Positions 20,442-62,666 of a stretch of 64,000 nucleotides of DNA are shown one piece after another. Source of the stretch: a bacterium (GTDB lineage: Bacteria > Gemmatimonadota > Gemmatimonadetes > Gemmatimonadales > Gemmatimonadaceae); the NCBI GenBank assembly GCA_027484025.1, contig JAIXTI010000207.1, forward strand, positions 1 to 64,000, given 5' to 3'. The notes beneath the pieces are model-generated. The model ran no database searches and was not told where the DNA came from. It saw only the letters and a list, made by a program, of their open reading frames with translations. Position 1 is the stretch's first letter. Each line of letters starts with the position of its first letter. The position numbers and the translations under genes are program-made.

Positions 20442-20701
20442 GCAGCTCCGTCCTGGAAACAAAGAGTGAAAATCGACTGGCCCATGCGGGGCAGCCGGAG
20501 GTAACCACATATAGGACGCCCCGCCGTCGGCAGCCGTAACCGTTACGCCACCGGCACGACCGCCCTTGGGGGTGTACCCCTGAAGCTGACGGAGCGTTCA
20601 CCCGCCGGCAAGCACGGCCAGAACAGCGGGTGCAAGAGTCCGGCCGGGCGAGGAGGCTCATGCGGCTCACCCTCCTCGCGTCTCAGAGCTGAGTGGGAGA
20701 A

Positions 20702-20874
20702 TCGAGACGGAGAGGCCGAGAGCCGAGAGGGCGAGAAGCCAGCCCGGATAGGTGTGAGAGTTGAGTCACCCAGGAGCGAGCGGCGAGGGGGCGTCTGGCT
20801 TCTCGCCCCTGCGTTACTCGACTCTCACGCCTATCAGAGTCTCGGCTCTCGACTCTCAGCCTCTCCGTCTCGAG
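20702..20874. repeat. Complex imperfect inverted-repeat element
   Basis: Outer arms gagacggagaggccgagag / ctctcagcctctccgtctc; inner perfect 14-bp pair gggcgagaagccag (20729-20742) / ctggcttctcgccc (20795-20808); pair gataggtgtgagagttgagtcacccagg (20747-20774) with complement at 20808-20835 (24/28). Confidence 0.85.
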
Positions 20875-20935
20875 TCTTGAGTCTGGAGACTGAGATCTCG
20901 AGCGCCGAGAGCCGCTTCATCTCGCGTGCCCCCCC

Positions 20936-22953: not shown

Positions 22954-24345
22954 ATGTCCCGTATTCCGGCTGATCTCGCGCAGTATTGCGATGCGCACGA
23001 CGCGCGCGCGCTCGACGAACTCTTCGCCTTCCTGCGCATCCCGTCGGTGTCGGCACGTTCGGAGCACAAAGCCGATTGCGCAGCGGCCGCGCAGTTCGTC
23101 GCCGACTCGCTCACCCGCATTGGCTTCGACGCCACGCTCGAAGCCACGCCCGGACATCCCATTGTTGTCGGTGAGTGGCGCAAGGCACCAGCGGGTGCGC
23201 CGACACTGCTCATCTACGGCCACTACGACGTGCAACCCGCCGAGCCGCTGGAGCTCTGGACCTCACCGGCCTTCGAGCCCACACTGCGCGACTGCCGCAT
23301 TTACGCGCGCGGCTCCGTCGACGACAAGGGGCAGCTGTATCTGCACATCAAGGCGCTCGAAGCGCATCTCGCGGCACGCGGGACGCTGCCGGTCAACGTC
23401 ATCGTGCTCGCCGAAGGTGAAGAAGAAGTCGGGAGTGTGAACCTCGAGCAGTTCCTCGAGCGCGAGAAGACACGCTTGGCCTGCGACGCCGTCGTCATTT
23501 CCGACAGCACCATGTTCGCGCCGGGTATTCCCAGCATTCTCTCGTCGCTGCGCGGCATGGCGTATCTCGAAATCAATGTGCGCGGCGCCAATGGTGATTT
23601 GCACAGCGGCATGTACGGCGGCGCCGTCGTGAACCCGGCCATGGCGCTGGCGCGCATTCTCGCGACCATGCACGACGACACCGGGCGCATCGCCATCCCC
23701 GGCTTCTACGACGACGTGCGGCCATTCCCCGATCATGTACGCGCGCAGATGCGTACGCTGCCGTTCAGCGATGACGCGCTCATGCACGAAGTCGGCGTCA
23801 CCGGATTGGGCGGAGAACCGGGGTACACGACACTCGAGCGCCTCTGGACACGCCCCACGTGCGAAGTGAATGGGTTGCTCAGCGGCTACACCGGCGAAGG
23901 CGCCAAAACCGTTCTCCCCGCCGTCTCCATGGCGAAGGTGAGCTTCCGTCTCGTGCCCGACCAGGAACCCGAGAAGATCGCGGAGCTGGTGCAGGATCAC
24001 GTCGATCGCGTCGCGCCTCCGGGTGTCACGGTCATGGTGGAGCATCTGCACGGCGGACGTCCGTGGCGCGCCGATTTGCAGGGCCCCATCATCGACGCCG
24101 GCAAAGCGGCACTCGAGGCGGCGTTCGGACGCGAGCCCGTGATTACAGGCGAAGGCGGCAGCATCCCCGTGGTCGGCGACTTCGAACGCATTCTTGGCGC
24201 GCCCGTACTCCTCATGGGCTTCGGTCTTCCCGGCGAAAACGCGCACGCCCCCAACGAGTGGATCAGCCAGGAGAATTACCAGCTCGGCATCCGCGCGGCG
24301 GCGGTGTTGTACGAAGAGTTCGGCGAACGCGCACGCAAGCCGTAA
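22954..24345 (+). CDS. M20 family dipeptidase
   Basis: LLIYGHYDVQPAEPLELW, GSVDDKGQLYLHIKALEA, LAEGEEEVGS, GANGDLHSGMYGG, FGLPGENAHAPNEWI. Confidence 0.93.
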   Translation: MSRIPADLAQYCDAHDARALDELFAFLRIPSVSARSEHKADCAAAAQFVADSLTRIGFDATLEATPGHPIVVGEWRKAPAGAPTLLIYGHYDVQPAEPLELWTSPAFEPTLRDCRIYARGSVDDKGQLYLHIKALEAHLAARGTLPVNVIVLAEGEEEVGSVNLEQFLEREKTRLACDAVVISDSTMFAPGIPSILSSLRGMAYLEINVRGANGDLHSGMYGGAVVNPAMALARILATMHDDTGRIAIPGFYDDVRPFPDHVRAQMRTLPFSDDALMHEVGVTGLGGEPGYTTLERLWTRPTCEVNGLLSGYTGEGAKTVLPAVSMAKVSFRLVPDQEPEKIAELVQDHVDRVAPPGVTVMVEHLHGGRPWRADLQGPIIDAGKAALEAAFGREPVITGEGGSIPVVGDFERILGAPVLLMGFGLPGENAHAPNEWISQENYQLGIRAAAVLYEEFGERARKP

Positions 24346-24363
24346 CGCAAACTCGCTACCCAT

Positions 24364-24401
24364 ACACAAAACCCGGAACTGATCAGTTCCGGGTTTTGTG
24401 T
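24364..24401. terminator. Perfect 38-nt palindrome at convergent gene ends (bidirectional terminator/REP-like)
   Basis: ACACAAAACCCGGAACTGATCAGTTCCGGGTTTTGTGT reads identically on both strands; its 24-nt core recurs at 62606-62629. Confidence 0.85.
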
Positions 24402-24429
24402 TCAGGAATGTGTTGAAGGTCGAACGCGC

Positions 24430-35557: not shown

Positions 35558-35560
35558 GCC

Positions 35561-35671
35561 GCAGTTCCTGCGCTCCCGCCGTCTGTGTTACTGCCGTCCG
35601 CCGTCTCGGCGCGATCTGCCGGCATCACGCCGAGACGGCAAACGGCAGCCACACAGACCGCAGGCGCGCAG
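35561..35671. repeat. ~110-bp palindromic repeat, copy A
   Basis: gcagttcctgcgctcccgccgtctgtgttactgccgtccgccgtctcggcgcgat...cgccgagacggcaaacggcag...; same core as copies at 38948 and 53529. Confidence 0.9.
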
Positions 35672-36974: not shown

Positions 36975-38879
36975 TCAGCGACGCTGGAATTCGGGGGCGC
37001 CTAGAGCGAGCCCCACAATGAGGGCCAGCCCGGTGGGCGCCGCGTTGGCGCGACGCTGACGCGGTGTCATCGCCTTCGCACTGTCATCGTCGTCATCAAC
37101 CACGAGCGTGTCGGCCGCGGCGGCGCGAGCCGCCAGAAACGGGTTGGTGCCAGTGAGCAAAACCTGCCGCGTATCGTTCGACACGGCGCCGCCAAGCAGT
37201 TCGCGCACCACCCCGTCTACCTGACCGGTCAGATCGAGCGACGACAGCGTGCCGTACGCGGGCCACTGCGCCAGTCGTACCCCAGGCATACGGCCGCTCG
37301 CCACCGTGAGTCCGAAGTTGATGCGGTTGAGGATCGCGCCGGTATTCATCCACGCGTCGCCCGTTTCGGGATAGCCGTTGGGCGCCTGATGGCCAAAAAT
37401 CGGTTGTCCCAAACGGCTCACCACCTGCGCCGTGCGCGGAGTGGCATCGGCCGGGACCTGCAACGCGCGCATCGCGCTCGTCACGAGTTCGAAGGGGCTC
37501 TTCACCTTGCTGCGGTACGCGTCGGCGCTGAAGAACTCGGGGCTGGTGACGATCGTGCGCACCGTTTCGCGGATATCACCATTGGTGCGCTGAAACGTGG
37601 CCGCGGCGCGGGCCACGAGCGCCGGTGGCGGCGTGTCGCTTACGAATCGACGCGCCAGCTTGGTGGCAATGAACGTCGCGGTCTTGGGGTGCGAGGCCAG
37701 GAGGTCGAGCACCGCCTCGCCTTCCTCTTCGCCGCGACCCGCAGGAAACGCCTTCCCGAGAATGGTTTTCGCGCCGGCATCGTGTACCTGCGCCCGGAAC
37801 TGGTACCCACCACCCTGTGCCCCGCGCGCCAGCGTCCATCCGGTGAGCGCCCGTGCCACCTCGACGACATCCTGCTGCGTGTAGCCGCCGTCCACGCCGA
37901 GCGTGTGCAGCTCCATCAGTTCGCGGGCGTAGTTCTCGTTGAGTCCGCGACGACGCTGTGCGAGCTGCTGCAGCGCCGGATTCTGGGCCATGCGCTCCAT
38001 CACCCGCTGCCGCGCGACCTCCGCGCGTCGTTGCGCCGCGCGATTGTTCACGCCCGCCCGCGCGCCGTTGGCGGCCACGCGCGGCTGCTGCAGCGTGGGC
38101 CGCCCACTGTCGGCGACACTCTGCCAATTGTCGAGGTAGTAGAGCATCGCCGGGCTCTTGGCCACGGCGCCAAGCAACTCGCGGAAGTTGCCGAGGGCGT
38201 GCTGACGGATGGTACGGTCGTAATCGTTCAGGAAGTATCGCGTGCGGTCCTTCCCGGAGAACACGTTGAAGTGGTTCTCCCAGAAGTCGACCAGCACCTC
38301 CTCCAGCTGCCGTTCACTCACGACGGCGCGTGCCACTCGGCTCGACGCCAGCTCGCCAAGAAACTGCGCGGACCGGCGCGCCTGCTGACGCAGCTTCGCG
38401 GAGTCCTCCGCCGTGATGACGCCGTTGGTGCGCCGCGCCGCCGCCGCGAGCGCGACGTTGGCCGGCGGATACTCCGCCAGCAGCTGATCGGAGGTCATCG
38501 CGACGGTCGTGTATGAGCGCACCAACGCCGTCGCCGCGCTGTCGGCAATGCCTTCCGGCGAGAGCTGACGCGCAATCCAGGCGTCGACCCCCATGCGACG
38601 CACTGCCTCGACATCCCCGGGCCGGGGACCGAAGGCGAGGCGGTTGAGCACCTGCTGGACCTGCTGGTCGGCGGTTTGTTCGCGCGGGGCCCGCGCGTCG
38701 GCGGTCTGGCGTTCGGGCGCGTTGCCCGACGCGCTTCCTCCGTCACGGCTCGGCGTGCTGTTTCCTGAAGACGCGCAGCCGCCAACGGCGAGGAGCGCTG
38801 CCGTGATGCCCCACCTGACGGCGCGGCCACGGCGTGGAATACGGAACTGCGGCACGTTGCCGACGGAATCAGCTGCCAT
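36975..38879 (-). CDS. DUF1800 domain-containing protein
   Basis: VLNRLAFGPRPGDVEAVRRMGVDAWIARQL, DFWENHFNVFSGKDRTRYFLNDYDRTIRQHALGNFRELLGAVAKSPAMLYYLDN, NENYARELMELHTLGVDGGYTQQDVVEVARALTGWTL. Confidence 0.94.
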   Translation of the reverse strand: MAADSVGNVPQFRIPRRGRAVRWGITAALLAVGGCASSGNSTPSRDGGSASGNAPERQTADARAPREQTADQQVQQVLNRLAFGPRPGDVEAVRRMGVDAWIARQLSPEGIADSAATALVRSYTTVAMTSDQLLAEYPPANVALAAAARRTNGVITAEDSAKLRQQARRSAQFLGELASSRVARAVVSERQLEEVLVDFWENHFNVFSGKDRTRYFLNDYDRTIRQHALGNFRELLGAVAKSPAMLYYLDNWQSVADSGRPTLQQPRVAANGARAGVNNRAAQRRAEVARQRVMERMAQNPALQQLAQRRRGLNENYARELMELHTLGVDGGYTQQDVVEVARALTGWTLARGAQGGGYQFRAQVHDAGAKTILGKAFPAGRGEEEGEAVLDLLASHPKTATFIATKLARRFVSDTPPPALVARAAATFQRTNGDIRETVRTIVTSPEFFSADAYRSKVKSPFELVTSAMRALQVPADATPRTAQVVSRLGQPIFGHQAPNGYPETGDAWMNTGAILNRINFGLTVASGRMPGVRLAQWPAYGTLSSLDLTGQVDGVVRELLGGAVSNDTRQVLLTGTNPFLAARAAAADTLVVDDDDDSAKAMTPRQRRANAAPTGLALIVGLALGAPEFQRR

Positions 38880-38947
38880 GGTGCGAACTCTCCACTAGGG
38901 TCACCCGTTTGGACGCAGAAGCGACGGCCTCGTTAATCCCAACTACC

Positions 38948-39058
38948 GCAGTTCCCGCGCCCCTGCCGTCTAGAACCCTGCCGTCCGCCGTCTCGGCGCG
39001 ATCCCGCCGCATCGCGCCGAGACGGCGGACGGCAGGGTTCTAGACGGCAGGAGCACAG
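38948..39058. repeat. ~110-bp palindromic repeat, copy B (perfect 40-bp arms, 8-nt loop)
   Basis: Arms 38963-39002 and 39011-39050 are exact reverse complements: ctgccgtctagaaccctgccgtccgccgtctcggcgcgat / atcgcgccgagacggcggacggcagggttctagacggcag. Confidence 0.95.
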
Positions 39059-39104: not shown

Positions 39105-39584
39105 ATGCCTTCCACTGAGACGCCCGGTCGTTTTGAGCGACTGCTCGATGCCGCCTTCGCGACCGGAACCCTCACCACCATTGCCACCGGTGGCGCGTTG
39201 TTGGGGCTCGGATGGCGCGAGGGTGAAGCCGGGCGCGTCTTTCGGCTCGCGGGCCGTGGGCTCCTCGAGCGCTCCGGTGTCACATCGGCGGCCGCGCCGC
39301 TCACCTCGGTCGCACTCGGGTACTTCCACCACCTGATCATCGCGACGGCCTGGGGTGTCCTCTTGGCGTTGCCCGTATTGGCGCTCCGCGGGCCGCTCCG
39401 GCTCTTCGCCGCCGGGGTGGCGGCGTTCGGCTATGTGGTTTGCGCCGCCTATCTGCTCTCGCCCTCCCTGCGCATTGGCTATGCAGTGACGTCAAACATA
39501 CCCAGCGCGGTTCCTATTGGGGTCGCGCTCGCCTTGGCGCTGCTCGGTGGTATCTGGCTCGACGCCACCGAGGGGCACGACTGA
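39105..39584 (+). CDS. Small membrane protein of unknown function
   Basis: 159 aa with about four predicted TM segments (TLTTIATGGALLGLGW, HHLIIATAWGVLLALPVLAL, LFAAGVAAFGYVVCAAYLL, AVPIGVALALALLGGIWL). Confidence 0.7.
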   Translation: MPSTETPGRFERLLDAAFATGTLTTIATGGALLGLGWREGEAGRVFRLAGRGLLERSGVTSAAAPLTSVALGYFHHLIIATAWGVLLALPVLALRGPLRLFAAGVAAFGYVVCAAYLLSPSLRIGYAVTSNIPSAVPIGVALALALLGGIWLDATEGHD

Positions 39585-44974: not shown

Positions 44975-46854
44975 CGCGATTCACGCGAACGGTTCGTCGT
45001 ACGGCGACGCGTGCACGGCGCGGCGCCGCACTGGTCACGGTGCTCATCGTCTCCGTGGTCGCCATGACCATGGCGGTGGCGTCTTCCATGCTCGTCATGG
45101 GCAGCTCTCTCACGCAGCGCGCCAGCGAGCGAACGGCCATGGTTGACGACGCGGCGTTGAGCGGTCTCGAGGAAGCGCGCAACCTGCTGAATGCCCGTCT
45201 CGACAGCATGCCGCTGGTAGGCTTCAAGACGTTCGAGAATGGCGTGCGCATTACCGGCACGGATATCACGCGCTGGACCTGGGTGGGGCGCATCGGCAAC
45301 GTCGATTCACTGGCGAACGCCGGCGAGTACGGTGTGCAGGCCGAAATCATCTCGCGGGCCGTCGACGGCAGTGGCGTCGAGGCGATCCGTCGCGCGCTTG
45401 TATATCAGCAGTCGTTCGCGCGCTACGCGTTCTTCACCGATCAAGGCAAAACGCCGAGCGGGGGTACGCTCTGGTTCGCCAACGGGTGGACGGCGAGTGG
45501 ACCGTTCCACTCCAACGATTCCATTTACATTCGCGACGGGGCGCCGCCGCAGGCGATCTTCAAGGATCAGGTCACCACGGCGAAGGGCGTGTTCAACGCG
45601 GCCGACGCGCAGTTCGACAAGGGGCCGGCGCAAATTGTCTCGCCGATTGCGCTCCCCAGCACCGCCGATCTCAACATTCTGCGCACCATCGCGCAGCGCG
45701 CCGGGTACCTCTTCTCTCCGTTGCTGGTCACGGGCGATACGGCGCTGGTGACCATGCGCATCGAGTTCGTCGCGATCGATGCCGACGGAGATGGCAATAC
45801 CACCGGGCCGGACGACGGCTACTTCCGCATATACCGACTTCGCAACACGACCTTTGGCGCGGGCTACACCATGGCGCGCACCCCCGCGCCGCCCGCTGGT
45901 GCCGTGGGGACACAGGACAGTGTCCTGTATTCGCGAAACTGCGGCGTGACCGCGGCGGTCCTCGGCCAGGAGGTCGTCACCACCACCTTCGCCAACACCC
46001 TCGAACTCCCCGGAAGCAACTATCGCGCGCGCATGCTCAACAAGCAGAACGCGTTCGACAACGTCAGCGCGCGCTGCTTTCTCGGCGGCGATCCACGACT
46101 CAACGTTGGCGGCGTGTTTCAGGCCGTCGACGCCGCGGGTGAGTGGATGCCGCGAACCGCCGGTTCGGTACCACCACTGGTCGCGGCACGCCCCGATGGC
46201 GCGTTTCTGTGGCCCTTGAGCGCGGCGCTCAATCCCAACTTTCGCGGCACCATCTTCGTCGATGGTCGCGTGGGGGTAAGCGGCACGGTTCGTGGACGGG
46301 TCACCCTTGCGGCGCGCGAGAACATTGTCGTCCTCGACGACCTTAGGCAGGCCACACTGCCTGGAGCCAACGGCGCGTGTCGCGCTGATGACGATATCGT
46401 GGGGCTCTTCGCGGGTGAAAACGTCATGTGGGCGGACAACATGCTGGCGTCGCCGCAGCAGCGTCGAACCAATGACAACGGCACGTGGCTGCTGCCCCGG
46501 AAAGAGTTCAGTCCCTCGAGCGCACGTCCGGATCTTCAGGTTCACGCCATCATTCTCGCGCTCGAGTCCATCGGCACCGAAGACCCGTCGCCGCCGGCCG
46601 GACTGCCTGTCGCCAACTGGGTGAATCGCGGATTCGTCCGGCAGGTGGGCGGCCGTATCCAGCAACGCGCCGGCACCGGTGGTACCATCAGCGGCACGTC
46701 ACTGCATGGCTACACGAGCGAAATCTCCTTCAACCGCTGCGCGCTGACGAGTCCACCGCCGTATTTCCCGACCACGCAGCGTTGGACGCTCAGTCAGTTC
46801 TACGAAGTCGATCCGCAGCGGTTTACGCCGGAGCGGTGGTTTAGCCGACGCTGA
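44971..46854 (+). CDS. PilX-like large protein of the minor-pilin operon
   Basis: N-terminus RRGAALVTVLIVSVVAMTMAVASSMLVMGSSLTQRASE resembles PilX-type leaders; ATGA overlap; 627 aa. Confidence 0.75.
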   Translation: MTRFTRTVRRTATRARRGAALVTVLIVSVVAMTMAVASSMLVMGSSLTQRASERTAMVDDAALSGLEEARNLLNARLDSMPLVGFKTFENGVRITGTDITRWTWVGRIGNVDSLANAGEYGVQAEIISRAVDGSGVEAIRRALVYQQSFARYAFFTDQGKTPSGGTLWFANGWTASGPFHSNDSIYIRDGAPPQAIFKDQVTTAKGVFNAADAQFDKGPAQIVSPIALPSTADLNILRTIAQRAGYLFSPLLVTGDTALVTMRIEFVAIDADGDGNTTGPDDGYFRIYRLRNTTFGAGYTMARTPAPPAGAVGTQDSVLYSRNCGVTAAVLGQEVVTTTFANTLELPGSNYRARMLNKQNAFDNVSARCFLGGDPRLNVGGVFQAVDAAGEWMPRTAGSVPPLVAARPDGAFLWPLSAALNPNFRGTIFVDGRVGVSGTVRGRVTLAARENIVVLDDLRQATLPGANGACRADDDIVGLFAGENVMWADNMLASPQQRRTNDNGTWLLPRKEFSPSSARPDLQVHAIILALESIGTEDPSPPAGLPVANWVNRGFVRQVGGRIQQRAGTGGTISGTSLHGYTSEISFNRCALTSPPPYFPTTQRWTLSQFYEVDPQRFTPERWFSRR

Positions 46855-46858
46855 ACAG

Positions 46859-46916
46859 CGGTTGAATAGCGGGGGGCGGGCGGCCAGTGAACCGCCAGCC
46901 CCCCGTTGTTCAACCG
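46859..46916. terminator. Bidirectional hairpin between convergent genes
   Basis: cggttgaatagcggggggc...gccccccgttgttcaaccg between pilX-like (+) and thyX (-). Confidence 0.75.
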
Positions 46917-46922
46917 CCCCGT

Positions 46923-47690
46923 TCACACCTTGTGGTACGTAATCCGCGCCGCTTCGCGACGGTCTTCGGCCATGTAAATCTCGAAGTCGCTGAAGAACGC
47001 CGGCGCTTCGGTCTGCAGCACGCGCAACACCATCACGGCCGCGCGACGGATTTCGAGTTCCGCCGCTTCGCTCGAGCGGAGCTCCAGCATCGTGCGCCAC
47101 GCGCGCGCGTTGCCGGTGACGACGATCTTGGTTTCGGTGCTGTTGGGGAGCACGCCGCGCGCCGCTTCCCGCGCCATCTTGCGGCGATGGACCTTGTCGT
47201 CCACCCACGAGTAACGCGCCATGAGCGAATCGACAAGCGCGATATAGCTGTCGAGCGCCGAGGACACCTGCGCCGTCCACGCCTCTTCGAGTGGTGCATC
47301 GCCGATCATGGCGGGGGGCATCACGAACTGCGCGTCGCTTTCGTCGACGTAGCGCTGCGAGAGTTGCGAGTACGCAAAGCCCGCGCGGTGACGTACGAGT
47401 TCGTGCGTGAGCGAGCGGCTCACGCCTTCGAGGAGCAGCGAATAGTTCGCGTGCTCGAGCACGCTGCCATGCCCCTGCTTCTTGATGTTCTCGAGATACT
47501 CTCGCGTCGAACGGCCCGCGGGATTGCGCTGACTCATGTAGCACAGACGTCCCGCAAATTCCGACAAGCGCTCGCCGTCGGTGGAGTCGCCAATCCATTG
47601 CACCGGCAAGTGCGCCGGTTCGACGAACTGTGGACGTGCGAGCACCGTGACTTTTGGTTCACGCAAAACGGCGGCAGCGGAAAGCGGCAT
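46923..47690 (-). CDS. thyX: FAD-dependent thymidylate synthase
   Basis: GHGSVLEHANYSLLLEGVSRSLTHELVRHRAGFAYSQLSQRYVDE contains the RHRxxSxxxxSxRY-type motif (RHRAGFAYSQLSQRY). Confidence 0.96.
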   Translation of the reverse strand: MPLSAAAVLREPKVTVLARPQFVEPAHLPVQWIGDSTDGERLSEFAGRLCYMSQRNPAGRSTREYLENIKKQGHGSVLEHANYSLLLEGVSRSLTHELVRHRAGFAYSQLSQRYVDESDAQFVMPPAMIGDAPLEEAWTAQVSSALDSYIALVDSLMARYSWVDDKVHRRKMAREAARGVLPNSTETKIVVTGNARAWRTMLELRSSEAAELEIRRAAVMVLRVLQTEAPAFFSDFEIYMAEDRREAARITYHKV

Positions 47691-50017: not shown

Positions 50018-50093
50018 GCAGTGAAGCTCCGCGATGGCTGGTTCTGGTGCAAGGGCCGGGTGGTCGGGGCCCGTGGGTCTGGGCGGTGGTCTC

Positions 50094-50390
50094 GGTACAG
50101 CCACTACAGTCGGGGCACTGCCACCACAGTCGGGGCACTGCCACGACAGTCGGGGTCTACCTGCAGTCGGCGTCCTGGCCGGGTCGGGCGCTACGCTGCG
50201 CTGGCGCGTCGGGGCGAAAATGTCGGGGTCGGGGTCGGGGTCGGGGCAGCCCCGACACTTTTCCCCCGACCCCAACGCGCCAGCGCAGCGCCGCGCCCGA
50301 CCCGACCGAGACCCCGACCGTTTGTAGACCCCGACCGTCGTGGCAGTACCCCGACTGTCGTAGCAGTACCCCGACTGTAGTGGCCGTACC
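50094..50390. repeat. ~297-bp imperfect palindrome with three 20-bp units per arm and a G4 motif near the apex
   Basis: Left units 50101-50120/50121-50140/50141-50160 (ccac[t/c/g]acagtcgggg[cactg/cactg/tctac]); right-arm inverse units at 50331-50350, 50351-50370 and 50371-50390; (GGGGTC)3GGGG at 50225-50246. Confidence 0.9.
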
Positions 50391-50490
50391 CCGACCACCC
50401 CCCGCAACCCCGACCCCCCGACCACCGCAGTTCAAAAGGAGCCAGTCCGAACTCGGTGACGCCGCCCCCTCGACATCGTATCTTGAGCAG

Positions 50491-53479: not shown

Positions 53480-53528
53480 CCCTTCAATACACACAGGGAC
53501 GGGTATGGGATTCAAGCGGGCAAAAACA

Positions 53529-53640
53529 GCCGTTCCCCCGCCCCTGCTGTCTAGAACCCTGCCGTCCGCCGTCTCGGCGCGATCCCGCGGCATCGCGCCG
53601 AGAATCGCAGACCGCAGCCACGCAGATGGCAGGAGCGCAG
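53529..53640. repeat. ~110-bp palindromic repeat, copy C
   Basis: ctgtctagaaccctgccgtccgccgtctcggcgcgatcccgcggcatcgcgccgaga matches copy B; distal right arm (gcagaccgcagccacgcagatggcag) resembles copy A instead. Confidence 0.9.
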
Positions 53641-53650
53641 GGGACGCTGC

Positions 53651-54286
53651 TTACCCGTTCCGCCCGCAGGTCACGCAGAACTTCCAGTCCGCCTCGAGCT
53701 CCGTGCTGCACGCCGGGCATTGCCGCTTGGTCAGATCGAGGCCGCAGTGCGGGCAGAAGGTCACCTTCCGCCCTTCGGGAAGCTTGTTGTCGCAGTAGCG
53801 GCAGCAGCTGTGGGTGCGCTTGGCCGGTGCGGCCGACGGGCTCGGCGCCGCGGGCGAACCCTGCGAGGGCGCCGGGAAAAGATCGTGCTCGTCTACCAGA
53901 CGCGGCTCGGGTACGACGGCGGCGGCGCCACTCGCCGACGGGTTGCCCGCCTTGGTGAGCTGGAGCGTGCTGCTCGCCCACGACCTTACCATCGCCAGCG
54001 TTGGAGAGGGAAAGGCCAGCGCCTGCCGACACGCGGCCTGCAGCTCCGGGTCGGTCAGCAGGTATCCGCGGTCGCCGGCCACCAGGCGCAGCAGGGCGGT
54101 TTCGAAGGCGTCGGTGCCACTGTTCGCCATCTCGCGCCGCACATCGCGGAACGGCAGCAGCCGCTCCTCGAGATCGCTGAGCGTGAAGCCCTGCGTCAGC
54201 AGCTGGGGGTACTGGGTGCGGATGGTTCGCGACAGCCGGAATGCGAGGCGATCGAGATCATCAAGGGAGCGAGCAACAACGCTCAC
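53651..54286 (-). CDS. Zinc-ribbon domain protein
   Basis: C-terminal CRYCDNKLPEGRKVTFCPHCGLDLTKRQCPACSTELEADWKFCVTCGRNG. Confidence 0.8.
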   Translation of the reverse strand: MSVVARSLDDLDRLAFRLSRTIRTQYPQLLTQGFTLSDLEERLLPFRDVRREMANSGTDAFETALLRLVAGDRGYLLTDPELQAACRQALAFPSPTLAMVRSWASSTLQLTKAGNPSASGAAAVVPEPRLVDEHDLFPAPSQGSPAAPSPSAAPAKRTHSCCRYCDNKLPEGRKVTFCPHCGLDLTKRQCPACSTELEADWKFCVTCGRNG

Positions 54287-62310: not shown

Positions 62311-62591
62311 GGGGCGGAAATTAATGGGGGGGCAGTGGTGTCGCAGGTGCAGCGATGAGGGTAACCGTTGAAGAGCGAATTGGCGGAACTTGAGTCGCGC
62401 GGTTTTCCTGTTACCCGGGCTCTCGTTACGCGTCCTACACTTGACGGCACGAATCTCGCTGTTACCAATCCTATCGTTGGCTGCGGCCCCAACCTTCGCG
62501 TTGAAAACGTTAGTCAACGAAGCCCGACGTCCCGGCGGAAACGCTTAGGGGCGTCGTGGTGCATCTGGGGGTGCTGAACTCCAAAACTCAA

Positions 62592-62643
62592 AACCCGAAC
62601 CCACCACCCGGAACTGATCAGTTCCGGGTCATGAGTTCGGGTT
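62592..62643. repeat. Nested hairpin containing the 24-nt palindrome ACCCGGAACTGATCAGTTCCGGGT
   Basis: Core 62606-62629 identical to 24371-24394 plus flanks; outer stem aacccgaac / gttcgggtt. Sits just 3' of sucB on the minus strand. Confidence 0.85.
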
Positions 62644-62666
62644 TCGCGTTTCGGGGCAAACCCCGC

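Follow-up and report, generated by a model that had tools for sequence, protein, structure and literature searches.

Between the start codons of two divergently transcribed genes in a 64,000-nt stretch of Gemmatimonas DNA (the window), there is an inverted repeat whose arms match without a single mismatch, and the question that this locus raises is to what kind of element it belongs and what its perfect symmetry says about its age. The first-pass annotation had described a perfect 40-bp inverted repeat with an 8-nt loop, and this is what is found: the left arm (38963..39002, plus strand) and the right arm (39011..39050, plus strand) match at 40 of 40 positions around the loop cccgccgc (39003..39010, plus strand), the arms and the loop together forming a hairpin of 88 bp. 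An additional pair (38962/39051) brings the stem to 41 mismatch-free pairs and, beyond a mismatch at 38961/39052, two more pairs extend the arms to 44 nt at 98% identity. The hairpin is part of a 113-bp element, copy B (38946..39058, plus strand; bounds drawn from an information profile over 66 isolated copies), which begins with CCGCAGTTCC, ends with GGAGCACAG and scores 121 bits against the covariance model of its family. As RNA, it is predicted to fold at −101 kcal/mol, as opposed to −45.5 ± 3.6 kcal/mol for shuffled sequences (z = −15.5). No Rfam 15 entry matches at its gathering score anywhere in the window.

The left neighbour of copy B, with its 5′ end towards the element, is a gene for a DUF1800 protein (36975..38879, minus strand; Pfam PF08811, E 6e-140), and the right neighbour is a genus-conserved open reading frame of 159 amino acids without a Pfam match (39105..39584, plus strand). 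Copy A (35559..35671, plus strand; 76% identical over the compared stretch) is located between the convergent stop codons of a PBP and a DUF1501 gene, and copy C (53527..53640, plus strand; 92% identical) about 10 bp past the 3′ end of a minus-strand open reading frame (53651-54286). Gene context thereby agrees with the earlier assignment of copies A, B and C to convergent, divergent and tandem junctions, respectively. The 17-mer core of the family occurs five times in the window, with 0.87 occurrences expected.

The family had been taken to have three members; the genome-wide search yields about 60 or more in the own genome alone, where BLAST gives at least 112 matches, most copies being hit on both strands owing to their palindromic sequence. 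A covariance model built from 49 copies finds at least 125 matches per genome, counting both strands, in three genomes, namely the own one, Gemmatimonas sp. UKL202c and RE-15aug16-119, and among 61 relatives it is in these three only that matches at BLAST level occur. Other Gemmatimonas were found to carry degenerate cousins only; in two genomes with weak covariance-model matches (G028 and G005), the outer CTGCCGTCT modules are kept while the centre is different. A search for the pattern CTGCCGTCTG-N3..8-CTGCCGTCTG recovers similar modules in one more genome (G016); in several further Gemmatimonadaceae genera it recovers plain (CTGCCGT)n repeats, but since a reversed control pattern is about equally frequent in many of those genera, the pattern count there does not speak for this heptamer in particular. 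Tandem (CTGCCGT)n repeats of 3 to 16 units were observed at loci L230-L259, mostly from other Gemmatimonadaceae genera, nearly all in intergenic gaps. An exact 21-mer match in Streptomyces, a Deltaproteobacterium and others was dismissed as chance, being a single arm in ordinary sequence without a palindrome. Phages and plasmids gave no match to the family, and no palindromic repeat family of Gemmatimonas was found described in the open-access papers searched.

Other inverted repeats are present in the window as well. A second palindromic family, rich in GTCGGGG, is represented between called genes at 50060-50425 (about 366 bp, with 149-nt arms that are 83% identical) and has dozens of related places both in the own genome and in UKL202c. 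Four further inverted repeats (20690-20920, 46850-46925, 24335-24415 and 62575-62660) look like single-site hairpins, with only themselves or a few places elsewhere in these two genomes among the matches listed.

Alignment of isolated copies defines the element as a quasi-palindromic, dyad-symmetric unit of 113–115 bp, with CCGCNGTTCCYSCGCNCCTGCCGTCT as its left end, the outermost nine bases of which are less conserved, and AGACGGCAGGNGCGCAG as its right end. In the comparison with known end tags, the termini read CCGCNGTTCC and GCGCAG, and overall the inverted ends are CCGCNGTTCCYSCGC-like. Elements are dispersed in both orientations, non-coding and without evident coding capacity. Their stem, which includes CTGCNGTC, is composed of conserved blocks (CC.GC.GTCT, CTGC.GTC.GC and CTCGGCG) interspersed with a variable 6–7-nt cassette and a variable block of 3–4 nt. 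In 49 copies, 40 of the 103 alignment columns are invariant, whereas evenly spread variation would leave about 0.1 such columns, and 34 columns differ in at least ten copies; this unevenness argues for a constraint on the stem blocks, which may come from a host function or from the copying process alike. Covariation gives RNA structure no support, because the covariation term of the folding tool is zero and double changes occur in just 2 of 28 pairs; the stems are simply invariant. Units are also arranged head to tail in tandem arrays with a period of 119–120 bp. In UKL202c, 31 stretches contain the core, with arrays of 7–12 units at several sites. The longest array seen there (contig C26, 31713-34206) comprises about 21 units, compared with three at the same site in the window's genome, where arrays may be collapsed.

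A perfect long hairpin, according to the first-pass annotation, is unstable in bacteria unless recent or selected. Palindromes of the size of this 88-bp hairpin are, however, tolerated in bacteria, which makes that premise a weak one. The site itself does not point to recency either: the copy B junction holds one imperfect copy in RE-15aug16-119, with a right flank that is 98% identical, and a 12-unit array in UKL202c, while in the more distant G028 it is without the element. Because the junction is occupied in both close relatives, the insertion must be older than the three-way split, and the perfection of the arms, if not an artefact of assembly, came later. The copy A site is likewise occupied in both. 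Presence/absence polymorphism, which had been proposed as a sign of mobility, was sought by comparing the flanks of 88 sites, 34 of them common to at least two genomes and 14 to all three; none of the 34 shared sites is empty, in a sample biased to occupied sites, since the loci had mostly been fetched for holding an element. A separate search for the flanks of ten sites of the own genome in both relatives added more occupied sites and zero empty ones. Target duplications, likewise proposed, do not exceed chance, there being no excess over shuffled flank pairs at these old sites. A family of only three copies, syntenic and fixed in all relatives, had been held to speak against a mobile palindrome; the small number does not apply, but syntenic and fixed is how the elements behave across the three species under comparison. 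No present-day movement of the family is known. Pre-existing host hairpins as insertion targets were considered and rejected, the dyad symmetry of the flanks equalling that of random pairing (P = 0.49); two loci (L006, L007) are striking single cases of flank symmetry and not general.

The family is lineage-specific and dispersed, and at sites common to the three genomes its interiors and array lengths are changing. At the copy B site, RE-15aug16-119 has GTGTGG as its left and GGGCTC as its right cassette, and the UKL202c units mostly share this pair, whereas copy B of the window carries AGAACC in both arms. Given this difference, its interior was most likely replaced by another family variant in the window's lineage, after the split from the nearest relative. 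Over the orthologous sites as a whole, 14 of 61 comparisons of arms show the cassette exchanged as a block, with the flanks differing by about 16% overall, and left and right cassettes are drawn from one pool, unmatched within a copy. A general rule by which one arm would correct the other was discarded, as the arms of the same copy are no more alike than those of different copies (identity 0.787 versus 0.793, P ~0.75). Perfect arms are found in one of 73 isolated copies against 0.06 expected by random arm pairing. The excess is mild and is compatible with one local template switch, with a conversion that happened to make the arms match or with an error of assembly. The last of these, by which an assembler would have merged two similar arms and thus produced the 40/40 symmetry, though not the element, is decidedly unlikely in our judgement. 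The assemblies are fragmented (291 contigs for the own genome, about 320 for RE-15aug16-119), so that arrays may be collapsed and arms falsely symmetrised, and both the excess of perfect arms and the imperfect orthologues would suit such an error; the arm variant of copy B, however, is a normal one that is present in other copies, and the unique sequence on either side of it runs on as in the relatives.

Concerning position, 81 of 82 placements are intergenic with respect to genes called by a home-made codon-usage caller. The gaps at 51 unique sites are convergent in 20, tandem in 25 and divergent in 6 cases; convergent gaps are enriched about twofold (odds 2.0, P = 0.03), and the depletion of divergent ones is not significant at these 51 sites (P = 0.18). 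The median distance is 10.5 bp to facing stop codons versus 108 bp to facing starts (P ~4e-10), and 52 of the 65 facing gene 3′ ends are at most 25 bp from the element. Most elements probably end up in transcripts as stable 3′ hairpins, copy B with its position between two start codons being one of the few exceptions. They might hence be host-selected, bidirectional 3′-end signals—terminators or mRNA-stabilising hairpins—whose stems are kept by selection at each site, a possibility that we take seriously while doubting it more than we believe it. In addition to the closeness to gene ends, it would account for stem blocks that are invariant next to variable internal loops and for hairpins far more stable than shuffled sequences. 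Yet neither a T run nor a terminator-like call accompanies the hairpins of copies A and B in the stretch scanned, for which reason a classical intrinsic terminator is not supported; most members of the genus are without a BLAST-level copy, though the gene beside copy B is conserved there; and a position just after a stop codon is also the least harmful one for an insertion.

As to mobility, the first-pass annotation had suggested a REP/MITE-like, non-autonomous mobile palindrome, possibly linked to a RAYT/IS200-like transposase elsewhere in the genome. Its description as dispersed, non-coding and without an adjacent transposase holds; recency and the RAYT link do not. The transposase search, covering the Y1/RAYT family, found a single gene per genome, both in the three that carry the family and in five further members of the genus. 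One RAYT per genome, together with palindromes that lie outside genes in high copy number, at gene 3′ ends and clustered, is what one would expect of REP/REPIN elements moved by this enzyme, but none of the eight RAYT loci carries the element and all carry a different, CTGACCCC-type repeat, the five further members have the RAYT without a BLAST-level family member, and unit length and ends are unlike those of REPs. RAYT as the mobiliser is therefore scarcely credible. On either side of the RAYT genes of the genus (L031, L206-L212), short repeats of the GGGGTCAGAGCT or GGGGTCAGAGTC type form inverted clusters, which make up a repeat system of their own. Rather unlikely, too, is an ordinary MITE, i.e., a deletion derivative of an insertion sequence which is mobilised in trans by a transposase recognising its inverted ends and which was recently, or is still, active. 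The size of 113 bp, the extended inverted ends, the lack of evident coding capacity and the intergenic dispersal in both orientations agree with such an origin; the chance level of target duplications and the full occupancy of the 34 shared sites do not, and neither does a palindrome that is nearly complete instead of consisting of two short ends around a core.

A further proposal dispenses with a transposase altogether. Palindromes would be built from heptamer-type sequence that is widespread between Gemmatimonadaceae genes, their modules—outer heptamer arms that are kept, a central hairpin that differs by species—would be copied and rearranged by a hairpin-based process, and some factor would keep the stem blocks constant. 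We give this proposal a small chance of being right. What we favour, as probable but well short of assured, is a joint reading in which lineage-specific, non-coding palindromes spread in an ancestor, were inherited in place, and have since undergone arm exchange and array change, with their likeliest effect at mRNA 3′ ends. According to this joint reading, some mobiliser would have spread the family in the common ancestor of the three closely related Gemmatimonas species; with neither an empty site nor a target duplication seen, it is the dispersal that suggests this original mobility. The sites were then inherited in place, as observed for the 34 shared ones, and arm variants would have been exchanged, most simply by ectopic gene conversion between dispersed copies or by hairpin template switching. 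Arrays differ in their number of 119–120-bp units, presumably through tandem gain and loss, and the perfect arms of copy B would stem from a replacement of the said kind after the split from the nearest relative. Functionally, the elements may affect the 3′ ends of mRNAs and the read-through from one convergent gene into the other, a role also suggested for REP/BIME that need not extend to copy B with its divergent neighbours.

A perfect palindrome is, as this locus shows, no evidence of recent insertion. Fixed sites combined with fast internal change in cassettes and array length make this family a natural system for studying how palindromic repeats persist without a known transposase, and it is equally suited to the question of whether the constancy of their stems is owed to selection or to copying.

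Among known systems, the family belongs to the REP/BIME/ERIC kind of element, the last of these being 127 bp long, and is not a new kind of system. REP units are reported to lie outside genes and downstream of them, in convergent or co-directional gaps and in clusters of tandem units (PMC3733652). The family is similar to the GTAG- and CGTC-tagged REP/BIME sequences in being high-copy, extragenic, downstream of genes and clustered in tandem units, but its unit of about 113 bp exceeds the 20–40 bp of a REP (PMC3733652), its end is without an unpaired GTAG or CGTC tag, CGTC occurring inside the arms only, and RAYT is not associated with it. With ERIC and other palindromic MITEs (Correia/NEMIS, RUP; PMC10969869) it shares a length of about 100–130 bp, a near-complete palindrome and an intergenic position, and differs in its arrays of up to about 21 units, in its exchanged arm cassettes and in that no parental insertion sequence was identified by the Y1/RAYT search. 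Transcript levels reportedly change where an ERIC copy is located at the 3′ end of a gene (PMC10969869). With 113 bp and dyad symmetry, the family also falls within the 70–300 bp and inverted ends by which MITEs are defined. Finally, CTGCCGT-type heptamers in its arms recall the (CTGCCGT)n repeats of the Gemmatimonadaceae, which, unlike the family, are plain direct repeats without a central hairpin.
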